Part shown: positions 4,013 to 34,650 of the stretch, piece by piece | How the letters are laid out: each line of letters begins with the position of its first letter | Numbering within the stretch: the stretch's first letter is position 1 | NCBI GenBank assembly: GCA_025361885.1 | Contig: JANYJF010000057.1 | Location: 1-44,878 of the forward strand | Source: Coriobacteriia bacterium | GTDB lineage: Bacteria; Actinomycetota; Coriobacteriia; Anaerosomatales; PALSA-660 | Direction of reading: 5' to 3' | Length of the DNA stretch: 44,878 nucleotides | Program-made: the position numbers and the translations under genes | The notes under the pieces: model-generated | The model's database searches: none | What the model was told of the DNA's origin: nothing | The model's input: the letters and a program-made list of their open reading frames with translations, nothing else

Positions 4013-6550
4013 GTGACCAGCAAGTACGATCCCCACGCCATCGAGACCAAGTGGCAGGACGCCTGGGACGCCGAGGGACTCTACTCGGTGGTCGAGGACG
4101 CCGCAAAGCCCAAGAAGTTCGTCCTCGAGATGTTCCCGTACCCTTCGGGCGACATCCACATGGGACACGTCCGCAACTACACGATCGGCGACGTCGTCGC
4201 GCGCGCGGCCACGATGCGCGGCTTCAACGTGCTGCACCCGATCGGCTGGGACGCGTTCGGTCTGCCTGCTGAGAACGCGGCGATCAAGAGTGGGACGCAT
4301 CCCGCGACGTGGACCTACGCCAACATCGAGAAGCAGGCCGCTTCCTTCCGTCGCATGGGTTTCTCGTACGACCCCGACCGCATGATCAAGACCTGCGACG
4401 TCGACTACTACCGCTGGGGCCAGTGGATCTTCCTGAAGATGTGGGAGCGCGACCTCGTCGAGCGCAAGTCCTCGCCCGTGAACTGGTGCCCGAGCTGCAA
4501 GACGGTGCTGGCCAACGAGCAGGTCATAGGCGAAGGCGTGTGCTGGCGCTGCAAGTCCCGGGTCGAGAAGCGCGAGCTGGAGCAGTGGTTCCTCAAGATC
4601 ACCGACTACGCCGACGAGCTGCTCGACGACCTGGAGGGGCTCACCGGCTGGCCCGATCGGGTCAAGGCCATGCAGGCCAACTGGATCGGCCGCAGCCACG
4701 GTGCCGAGGTGGAGTTCGCTCTCTGCGACGATTCTGGCGAGGAGTGCGACGAGCGCATCACGGTGTTCACGACGCGTCCCGACACGCTCTTCGGCTGCAG
4801 CTTCTTCCTGCTCGCGCCGGAGCACCCGCTCGTGCGCACGATCGTGGCTGGGACGGAGTACGAGACCGACGTCATGCGAGTCGTCGACATCACATCCAGG
4901 GAGACCGCCGTCGACCGCTCGAGTGGCGAGACCCCGAAGGTCGGCGCGTTCACCGGCCGCCACGTGGTCAACCCGGTCAACGGCCAGAAGGTGCCGGTAT
5001 GGGTCGCGAACTACGTGCTCATGGACTACGGGACGGGTGCGGTCATGGCCGTGCCCTCCGGCGACCAGCGCGACTTCGAATTCGCGAGGAAGTACGGCCT
5101 GCCGGTGCCGCCGGTGGTCATCGCGGACGACGACCCGGCTCTCGCGGAGCTCGCGGGCGTGCAGGAGCTGCTGAGCGAGGACGTGTCGTGGGACGAGGCA
5201 TACGCCGGCCCCGGCGTCATGGTCCAGTCGGGCGAGTTCACCGGGCTTCGCGGCGGCAAGGACTCCGAAGGCATGAACGCGGTCACGCGTTGGCTCGAGG
5301 AGCGCGGCCTCGGTCGCTTCGCCGTGAACTACCGGCTGCGCGACTGGCTCATCTCGCGGCAGCGGTACTGGGGCAACCCCATCCCGGCGATCCACTGTCC
5401 GACGTGCGGGCTCGTGCCCGTGCCCTTCGACCAGCTGCCGGTCGTGCTCCCGATGGACGTCGACATCACGAAGGGCGAGACGCTCGCCGACCACCCGGAG
5501 TTCTACGAGACGATATGTCCGAGATGCGGCGGTCCCGCCAAGCGCGAGACCGACACGATGGACACGTTCACGTGCTCGTCGTGGTACTACCTGCGCTACT
5601 GCGACGCCCGCAACGACCAGGCCGCCTTCTCGCGTGAGAACGCCGACTACTGGATGCCGGTGGACCAGTACATCGGCGGCATCGAGCACGCGATCCTGCA
5701 CCTGCTGTACTCGCGTTTCTTCACGAAGGTCCTGCGCGACCTGGGGCTGCTCGGCTTCGACGAGCCGTTCACCAACCTGCTGACCCAGGGGATGGTCAAG
5801 CTCGACGGCGCCACGATGTCCAAGTCGAAGGGCAACGTGGTGGCACCCGAGGACATGATCGCGAAGTACGGCGCCGACACGCTGCGCGCCTACATCCTGT
5901 TCATGGCGCCGCCGGACAAGGACCTCGACTGGAGCTACGACGGCCTCGAGGGCATGTGGCGGTTCATGTCGCGCGCCTGGCGGCTCGTCGATGAGATCGC
6001 CGGGGAGACCGCGGGCGGCTGCGGCGTGGCGGCTGCGGGCGGTCCGGGCGAGAAGGCGCTGCGCGCGGCGACGCACCGCTCCATCGGTCGCGTGACCGAG
6101 GACGTCGAGCGCTTCCAGTTCAACACCGCCATCTCCGCCATCATGGAGCTCGTGAACGCCGCGATGGACTACCGCCGCGACACGGCCCCGGGGATGCGCG
6201 ACCTGGCCCTGCTGCGCGAGGTGGCCGAGGCGGTGACGCAGCTGCTGTCGCCCATCGCCCCGCATATGGGCGAGGAGCTGTGGCGCGTGGTGCTCGGGCA
6301 CCACGGCTCCGTCCACCGCTCCGAGTGGCCGGCGTTCGACCCTTCGGCCGTGGTGATGGACGAAGTCGAGATCCCGGTGCAGGTCAACGGGAAGGTCCGC
6401 GACCGGCTGGTCGTCCCGACCGACATCGACGATGAGTCGCTCAAGGCGCTCGCGGTGGCGGCGCCCAACGTGGTGGCGCATCTGGCCGGGCTGACCGTGC
6501 GCAAGGTCGTCGTGGTGCCAGGCAAGCTCGTGAGCGTGGTCGCTGGGTAG
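4013..6550 (+). CDS. leuS: Leucyl-tRNA synthetase
   Basis: [31 protein letters not shown]-like [15 protein letters not shown], LeuRS editing and tRNA-binding regions; GTG start. Confidence 0.97.
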
Positions 6551-14512: not shown

Positions 14513-14842
14513 TCAGAACATCGGCCGCGTGTCGCGGGACTCTACGAAGTGCCTGTCGATGAACTCCTTCAGGTGCCTCACGCCCTCCTCATCGACGGCG
14601 TAGCGACTCCAGCTCACCCGCTGAACCAGCCCGCTCCTCTGGAGGATCGCGAGATGTTCGGAGACGGTCTGCTGCCTGACCCCCAAGTGGTCACCGATGT
14701 CGGTCGCGGAGAGCGACGGCGTGCGAAGAAGCCACAGGATCGAGCGCCGGGTGTCCGAGGCCAAGGCATCGAACATCGCGGGGATAGGCTCGTCCCGAGG
14801 TCCGTAGAAGATGGTCACATCGGCTCCTTGCTCTTGGGTCAT
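14513..14842 (-). CDS. ArsR-family winged-helix regulator
   Basis: MFDALASDTRRSILWLLRTPSLSATDIGDHLGVRQQTVSEHLAILQRSGLVQRV. ATG 14842 preferred to the supplied start at 15007, which would translate repeat DNA. Confidence 0.85.
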   Translation of the reverse strand: MTQEQGADVTIFYGPRDEPIPAMFDALASDTRRSILWLLRTPSLSATDIGDHLGVRQQTVSEHLAILQRSGLVQRVSWSRYAVDEEGVRHLKEFIDRHFVESRDTRPMF

Positions 14843-14880
14843 GCTGGGCGAGGTTCTTTTTCGCCCCCGTTGGGTGGCGG

Positions 14881-14930
14881 GCACGGGCGGGCACGAGCGG
14901 GCACGGGCGGGCACGGGCGGGCAGGGCGGG
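14881..14930. repeat. 10-bp tandem repeat (GCACGGGCGG)n, about 5 units
   Basis: GCACGGGCGG GCACGAGCGG GCACGGGCGG GCACGGGCGG GCAGGGCGGG read directly. Confidence 0.9.
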
Positions 14931-15064
14931 GTGCCCTTTTCGGCGCCACAGGCCGCGGCCTGTGAGAGGCAGGTAACACAGGCACCTGGCTGTGACATCA
15001 CAGGCAACTGCCAGTGTTATGTGGGACTCACAGGTCGCGGCCTGTGGCCCGCTGAAGAGGACCC
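14931..15064. repeat. Palindrome-array element, copy A (inverted dimer)
   Basis: 18-nt dyads at 14947-14964, 14977-14994, 14999-15016, 15029-15046 with spacers of 12, 4 and 12 nt; flanks resemble those of copy B. Confidence 0.85.
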
Positions 15065-15220: not shown

Positions 15221-15247
15221 CTGGCACTCCGTATACTCGAGTGCTAA
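15221..15247 (+). promoter_or_regulatory. CIRCE operator (HrcA-binding) upstream of hrcA-dnaJ
   Basis: CTGGCACTC-N9-GAGTGCTAA versus consensus TTAGCACTC-N9-GAGTGCTAA; a TATACT -10-like hexamer lies in the spacer. Confidence 0.93.
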
Positions 15248-15267
15248 CGACAGGAGCGATGCCCACC

Positions 15268-30742: not shown

Positions 30743-31558
30743 ATGTCCGAGGTCTCGAACGTCTACATCTTGTCCGACTCGCTCGGCGAGACGGCGGACC
30801 AGGTGGCAAAGGCCGCGCTCTCGCAGTTCGAGGCGGACCTGTTCCACATCGTGCGACTCCCCAAGGTGGGCTCGACCGTGCAGCTGGAGCAGCTCGTCGT
30901 CGCGGCGTGCGGGGAGCGATGCCTGTTCCTCTACACGCTCGCCGACCCGAGCCTTCGCGAGGAGATGCGCCACATCGCGAACAAGGTCGACATCCTGGCC
31001 ATCGACATCCTGGGGCCGTGCATCGAGGCGCTCGCCCTGATCTCCGGCGAGGTCCCGGCGTGGGAAGCAGGCATGATCCGCAAGACCGACCGCGGCTACT
31101 TCGAGAAGATCGAGGCGCTGGAGTTCGCGGTCAAGCATGATGACGGCCGCGGCGCCGAGGAACTCGACGAGGCGGAGATCGTGTTGATAGGCGTGAGCCG
31201 CACATCGAAGACCCCGCTGTCGATGTACCTGGCGTTCAAGGGCTACAGGGTGGCCAACGTGCCGCTCATGTCCGAGGTCGACCCGCCGCCGCAGCTCATG
31301 GAGATCGACAATCGCAAGATCTTCGGCCTCATCTCCTCGCCGGAGATGCTCGCCGAGATACGCGGACAGCGCATCTCGGACCTGGGGTTGTACGCGCGGC
31401 GTTACGCGGACCGCGAAGCCATCGAGCGCGAGGTGGACAACGCCAGGGCACTCATGCGCCGCATCGGCTGCCTCATCGTGAAGACGGAAGCGCGCGCCAT
31501 CGAGGAGACCGCGCAGGAGATCCTGCGCCACCTGGAGGCGTCCCGCGGGCACGCGTGA
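30743..31558 (+). CDS. ppsR: Pyruvate, phosphate dikinase regulatory protein (DUF299)
   Basis: VYILSDSLGETADQVAKAALSQF, LIGVSRTSKTPLSMYLAFKGYRVANVPL; lies directly upstream of ppdK. Confidence 0.94.
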   Translation: MSEVSNVYILSDSLGETADQVAKAALSQFEADLFHIVRLPKVGSTVQLEQLVVAACGERCLFLYTLADPSLREEMRHIANKVDILAIDILGPCIEALALISGEVPAWEAGMIRKTDRGYFEKIEALEFAVKHDDGRGAEELDEAEIVLIGVSRTSKTPLSMYLAFKGYRVANVPLMSEVDPPPQLMEIDNRKIFGLISSPEMLAEIRGQRISDLGLYARRYADREAIEREVDNARALMRRIGCLIVKTEARAIEETAQEILRHLEASRGHA

Positions 31559-31587
31559 GACGGCTGCCCGCGCCTGCGCCCGCACCC

Positions 31588-31609
31588 GCCCCGCCCCGCC
31601 CCGCCCCGC
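31588..31609. repeat. CCCCG-type pentanucleotide tandem repeat
   Basis: cgccccgccccgccccgcccc read directly. Confidence 0.8.
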
Positions 31610-31616
31610 ACCTTCA

Positions 31617-31753
31617 GGTACCCTCTCGGCGGGCCACAGGCGGTCGCCTGTTAGTGCCAGGTAACACAGGTAGTCACCTGTGGGCCCACAGGCGCCTGCC
31701 TGTAAGGCCCAGATAACACAGGCCGCCGCCTGTGGGCCACCAAAAGGGTGTCC
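31617..31753. repeat. Palindrome-array element, copy B (direct dimer)
   Basis: 18-nt dyads at 31635-31652, 31665-31682, 31687-31704, 31717-31734 with spacers of 12, 4 and 12 nt; inverted-repeat-like flanks. Confidence 0.85.
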
Positions 31754-31908
31754 GACTGCGCGCTCGCTCTCGAGCGAGGGAAGGCCGAACGGCGCGGGCC
31801 CCGGAATCCTGACGGCGGCGGGCGCGTAGGGTACGATACCGAATACGCCGCAAGGCGATATCCAGTCCAGGGGACTCAGATCAGTAAGCCGAGTAAGGGA
31901 GTGGGGAA

Positions 31909-34650
<2,742 letters not shown>

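Follow-up and report, generated by a model that had tools for sequence, protein, structure and literature searches.

The window, the whole stretch of Coriobacteriia DNA analysed here (44,878 nucleotides), contains two copies of an intergenic element in which four dyads follow one another at fixed spacing. With a confidence only a little better than even, we read this element as a multi-dyad binding array for an ArsR-type regulator, the letters of which appear to have diverged between genera while the geometry was kept. The reading draws on the geometry of the element and its genome-wide count, on a pattern of constraint without covariation, and on the presence of an array upstream of an ArsR-type gene in three genomes.

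Anatomy, distribution and constraint of the element

Both window copies carry dyads at offsets 0, 30, 52 and 82, with exactly the sequences and coordinates given by the first-pass annotation. In copy A the dyads, all pattern matches without assigned strand, are U1 CACAGGCCGCGGCCTGTG (14947–14964), U2 CACAGGCACCTGGCTGTG (14977–14994), U3 CACAGGCAACTGCCAGTG (14999–15016) and U4 CACAGGTCGCGGCCTGTG (15029–15046). They are separated by an asymmetric 12-nt spacer, AGAGGCAGGTAA, in forward orientation (14965–14976, plus strand), a 4-nt linker between the modules, ACAT (14995–14998), and a second 12-nt spacer in reverse orientation, which reads AGTCCCACATAA on the minus strand (15017–15028). The corresponding dyads of copy B are CACAGGCGGTCGCCTGTT (31635–31652), CACAGGTAGTCACCTGTG (31665–31682), CACAGGCGCCTGCCTGTA (31687–31704) and CACAGGCCGCCGCCTGTG (31717–31734), with both spacers forward on the plus strand (AGTGCCAGGTAA, 31653–31664; AGGCCCAGATAA, 31705–31716) and with the linker GGCC (31683–31686), which linker comparison finds in 5 of 11 copies. 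Flank conservation adds outer flanks of about 17 bp at 14930–14946 and 15047–15063 in copy A and at 31618–31634 and 31735–31751 in copy B. These flanks are mutually inverted (consensus of the inverted-repeat motif, GGACCCTTTCGCGGGC) and, across 22 flanks from 11 copies, conserved from −17 to −1 with a signal peak at TT −10/−9; beyond −17 just scattered single positions exceed the null. The full layout is thus flank, U, 12, U, 4, U, 12, U, flank, or about 134 bp, with a half-site consensus of C A C A G G C/T R R (88 halves) and an asymmetric spacer consensus of AGNCSCAGGTAA (22 spacers) that occurs in both directions. The first-pass annotation had described copy A as an inverted dimer of a 48-bp module. 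Its spacers bear this out, the first running forward and the third in reverse, but it is not a general rule: both modules point in one direction in 8 of 11 copies, among them copy B, a direct dimer, and are opposed in three, including copy A.

Copy A lies, as had been noted, between the ArsR-type gene on the minus strand and hrcA; copy B begins 77 bp past the stop of the PPDK regulatory protein (RP) gene, upstream of ppdK. Matches to CACAGGN6CCTGTG with up to 2 mismatches number 10 in the window against 2.5 expected (maximum in 100 shuffles, 8), and eight of them are units of copies A and B. As a separate observation, ACTCGAGTGCTAACG at 15238–15256, upstream of hrcA, resembles one CIRCE half, the other half not being evident.

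A genome-wide search with the module pattern CACAG-N8-CTGTG-N12-CACAG-N8-CTGTG, allowing up to 3 mismatches, found 22 two-dyad modules against none in the reversed control; because the pattern is self-complementary, they appear as 22 forward and 22 reverse matches. The 1.65-Mb draft genome (G000) holds 11 complete copies on eight contigs, every one at 0/30/52/82 and free of indels. The first-pass annotation had staked its reading on further copies and a constant spacing, and both were found, with 30/22/30 kept in all 11. A covariance model of the element recovered the identical 11 copies and nothing else significant in the genome. Contig C2 carries the unit CACAGGCCTAGGCCTGTG 6 bases in from its beginning, most likely the remnant of a 12th copy cut off by the contig end; apart from this case, the genome contains no half copies, and solo dyads show no genome-wide excess over the control level. 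The copies are mutually just 57–75% alike. They occupy unrelated intergenic sites in tandem, divergent and convergent gene contexts, with a gene start within 300 bp in 10 of 11 cases. Their neighbours (a DEAD-box helicase, a G6PD/6PGD fusion, mfd, hrcA, ppdK, radical SAM, EamA and others) have no apparent common function. A promoter-only operator array, one of the readings first offered, does not fit cleanly: the lack of a shared function among neighbours speaks against it, as does copy C17a, whose two neighbouring genes converge on it and leave a promoter operator without an evident task.

Short degenerate tandem repeats stand beside arrays at 14880–14925 and 31570–31612 of the window and at L032 6100–6200 and L263 8260–8315. 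A self-repeat index above 0.15 was found in 6 of 11 array gaps, whereas none of 23 gaps of 150 bp or more that lack an array exceeded 0.03 (p=0.003). At L031 3109–3180 the right end of the C13 copy is apparently partly duplicated, with GCTGCCTG...GGCGAAAAGGG present twice. Several contigs break off at or close to an array, or immediately upstream of the ArsR-type gene (L232 1–28, contigs C46 and C11 of G046, and L221), as if arrays or flanking repeats broke assemblies.

The pattern of constraint within the dyads is uneven. Arm positions 2–5 of CACAGG/CCTGTG are almost invariant in the 44 dyads, and the inner cores are saturated and random between copies: core identity between copies is 2.55/6 at the same position and 2.54/6 at different positions. 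Core sequence matches within one element (U2/U4 direct, U1/U4) were weak, with twelve tests uncorrected, and were set aside. Pair 6/13 comprises 33 GC, 5 GG, 6 CC and 0 CG, so that none of its 11 changes is compensated; the two positions of the outer core pair 7/12 in the CACAGG units vary without association (p=0.61), and G-T wobbles are not in excess of A-C mismatches (22 vs 20). A selected stem would show compensation, and a dyad read by a dimer would be expected to vary independently in this way. Fixed arms with independently varying pairs thus fit a dimeric DNA-binding protein and not a stem selected for pairing, which favours one of the options initially listed for the dyads, a dimeric-protein site, over the other two, a hairpin or cruciform. 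Neutral repeat decay would affect arms, cores and spacing equally, and plain decay of this kind does not give fixed arms and spacing beside saturated cores. Each copy has therefore been kept by selection or by an arm-restoring process.

Arrays with other half-site letters and the ArsR-type gene

A search of 68 other genomes of the order, none of which belongs to the genus of the window genome, and of a 397-genome sample of the phylum brought up no CACAGG-type array; single weak matches in G008 and G016 were judged to be chance. Arrays with other letters emerged from the neighbourhoods of ArsR homologs, where G058 carries, upstream of its homolog, a three-dyad array of ATCGA-N6-TCGAT at a 30-bp pitch. 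ATCGA arrays are present in two species, G058 and G046, of one genus in a different family from the window genome. When 1.23 Mb of DNA from relatives was scanned independently of sequence for dyads of any letters at 0/30/52/82, just the G046 array scored above 38/48, with a few positions at 37–38 and five control geometries reaching at most 35. This array runs 0/30/52/82/104/134, its gaps of 12 and 4 nt alternating as they do in the window; those of G058 run 0/30/60, 0/30 and 0/30/52. The 20 ATCGA dyads show no compensatory change at pairs 7 and 8, and pair 7 pairs below chance. By eye, tandem repeats similar to those of the window genome lie beside G058 and G046 arrays.

In G058 the arrays lie between recO and glyQ, between RP and ppdK, upstream of the ArsR gene and upstream of a gene with PASTA-like sequence, and two short near-identical contigs also carry them. 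A genome-wide motif search placed ATCGA arrays of G046 in two places. Common to both species are the array in the gap between the sigma factor and PASTA-like genes and that at the ArsR site; recO-glyQ and RP-ppdK are occupied in G058 only, the G046 gaps being short and array-free. The comparison shows site turnover within a genus. The RP-ppdK gap (window 30743–34650) holds an array in both the window genome (copy B) and G058, and so in two families, at 77 and 68 bp, respectively, past the RP gene stop. A tolerant scan of larger RP regions flagged only G058 and G046. An exact-arm test of the RP-ppdK loci of 29 other genomes found no array of at least three dyads, a test that misses the imperfect G058 array too.

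Wider scans returned other repeats. In the viral scan, 11 stretches were found, and those inspected resemble other hairpin repeats, several of the CACAGGCTTTAGCCTGTG type. Many Acidobacteria, Cytophagales and other records were among the matches listed in a scan of genome contigs. Also among the matches listed, Cytophagales and Pyrinomonadaceae contigs (L065, L082, L099, L112, L132 and L141) contain CACAG-N8-CTGTG pairs totalling 48 bp, several of the Cytophagales ones coming from one genome, and Pseudomonas kilonensis (L095 3787–4415) has a long, regularly spaced cluster of CACAG-N8-CTGTG dyads.

The candidate array binder is a 109-aa ArsR-type winged-helix protein encoded on the minus strand at 14513–14842 (Pfam HTH_20, 9e-12; HTH_5, 9e-10). 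An array lies upstream of the start of its gene or of the homolog in all three genomes, at 84 bp in G058, 104 bp in G000 and about 130 bp in G046, the last distance spanning a junction between two contigs that have a 25-base end in common. ArsR homology led to G058 and G046 before anything was known of their arrays; the ArsR neighbour of copy A was known from the start, so that the independent cases are these two species of one genus only. A profile search of 400 genomes of the class gave 131–164 bits for G000, G012, G046 and G058, the four that built the profile, against 60 for the next. No close homolog of the window's protein was found in the other compared genomes of its family. The recognition-helix region reads VSQGT[MV]SYH in both ATCGA-arm species and VRQQTVSEH in the window. 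G012, with a clear homolog, has no array in the roughly 236 kb sampled, the stretch upstream of the gene being cut by a contig end, and no array lies near the ArsR-like gene of G011. A single perfect dyad, GTCGAA-N6-TTCGAC, does occur in G011 (L268, around 4750–4900), upstream of this more distant ArsR-like gene.

The arrays resemble ArsR/SmtB operators in that conserved half-sites stand 6 bp apart, in CACAGG-N6-CCTGTG as in ATCGA-N6-TCGAT, and in lying upstream of an ArsR-type gene in G058, G000 and G046. Tabulated examples of such operators show N6 between half-sites, as in TGAA-N6-TTCA inside a 12-2-12 repeat, and the known ones comprise a single dyad or two, as a rule at the promoter (PMC8790569). 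The arrays depart from this in their CACAGG or ATCGA half-sites instead of TGAA/TTCA, in an unusual number of dyads, four to six, that alternate rigidly at 30 and 22 bp, in spacers that are both asymmetric and conserved, in inverted outer flanks, and in about 12 dispersed copies.

Mobility, chromosome organisation and folding

The copies must have dispersed at some time, because a 134-bp anatomy cannot arise a dozen times by chance, and one could envision a non-autonomous MITE or REP/BIME-like element that spread by transposition, with the outer flanks as terminal inverted repeats and the dyads as binding or folding sites for a transposase. The discrete outer boundary at −17 and the imperfect inverted flanks match the sharp terminal inverted repeats of MITEs, which are likewise small, intergenic and present in several copies; unlike MITEs, the arrays have no recent copies, and their binding-site anatomy is under strong constraint, the arms staying fixed while the cores are saturated. 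No target-site duplication was seen by eye in the flanks listed, although the copies are old and duplications may have decayed. Dispersal over unrelated sites in all three gene contexts, the lineage-specific occurrence of the element and the differences in site occupancy between G058 and G046 also speak for mobility, whereas decayed, half and solo copies are absent and the variable form of the G058 arrays does not resemble unit-length insertions.

The likeness to REP/BIME/REPIN systems with RAYT lies in short intergenic palindromes in ordered groups, direct or inverted, and REP dimers are common (PMC3733652). Such systems differ in their high copy number, singletons and variable groups, and in a hairpin stem maintained by compensatory change. 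In the arrays we find fixed spacing, no covariation, cores divergent between units and no singletons beyond chance among about 12 copies. A search for the Y1 transposase (RAYT, PF01797) gave no match in G000, which is 91.6% complete, and matches in 5 of 14 control genomes. The REP/BIME reading first proposed is disfavoured: no Y1 transposase gene was found, copies are few, solo dyads stay at chance level and the cores show no sign of recent relatedness. As neither a transposase candidate (PF01797 search) nor a target duplication was found, mobility is a rival of modest weight, and rather unlikely as the explanation of the element. It and the binding-array reading are compatible and can both be true, each of different times.

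Sites such as parS, matS and those of SlmA are limited in number, dimer-bound chromosomal palindromes, mostly single and of 12–16 bp. The arrays share with them a small number of chromosomal palindromes probably bound by dimers, and might likewise seed a nucleoprotein structure independent of neighbour expression, a possibility that we consider unlikely. Unrelated neighbours and one convergent location would fit it, as would the rigid multi-dimer geometry, the local clustering (in G000, pairs separated by 3.8, 4.0 and 16.7 kb; in G058, a stretch of 17.4 kb with four arrays) and the tandem repeats beside arrays, such as slippage at blocked forks might leave. Against it, the ArsR-type gene is preceded by an array in three genomes, which suggests autoregulation, arrays were seen in scattered genera only, and their positions come from a draft genome and not a chromosomal map; four-dyad arrays of fixed geometry also depart from single short sites.

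Finally, that each dyad acts as a stem-loop in structured RNA or single-stranded DNA is very improbable: window copies do fold as DNA far better than shuffles (z −8.8 for copy A, −5.9 for copy B), but many shuffles of the G046 array, which has equal geometry, fold as well as the array itself (z −1.4), the 44 dyads hold no compensatory changes and no more wobbles than A-C mismatches, and no Rfam family reaches threshold in the window copies. Structured RNA, tried as a candidate in its own right, was rejected on the same lack of Rfam families and covariation and on chance-level matches to one copy.

A candidate regulatory platform

Under the preferred binding-array reading, the element would present four sites for a dimeric protein, each an 18-bp dyad whose half-site reads CACAGGCRR, with 30, 22 and 30 bp from one centre to the next. 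On a helix of 10.5 bp per turn, 22 bp between centres amounts to 2.1 turns, 30 bp to 2.9 and 52 bp to 4.95; because the 52-bp double unit repeats at nearly five helical turns, the dimers would share roughly the same face of the DNA. Together with the asymmetric 12-nt spacers and the outer flanks of about 17 bp, they may build a nucleoprotein platform some 134 bp long. The likeliest protein is the small ArsR-type winged-helix regulator encoded beside copy A, which would bind the arrays cooperatively, regulate its own expression from copy A and work at about 12 sites between genes, transcriptionally or otherwise. Related regulators in the other family would use arrays of the same core length and pitch with different half-site letters. 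A further, more doubtful proposal is that protein and arrays together make up a module, regulatory or chromosome-organising, that is self-contained and spreads, with geometry kept across families, letters and recognition helix changing together, and arrays gained between species at intergenic sites such as RP-ppdK.

The sequence-independent geometry search finds arrays that ordinary repeat and RNA searches miss, and it is applicable to other genomes. If the arrays were mobile instead, they would represent a repeat class whose copies stay functional. If the binding-array reading is true, ArsR-type regulators extend from one or two promoter dyads to dispersed platforms of four to six dyads, a protein family and its site arrays would have changed recognition letters between genera with the architecture constant, and the rules of higher-order operator assembly could be read apart from sequence specificity.
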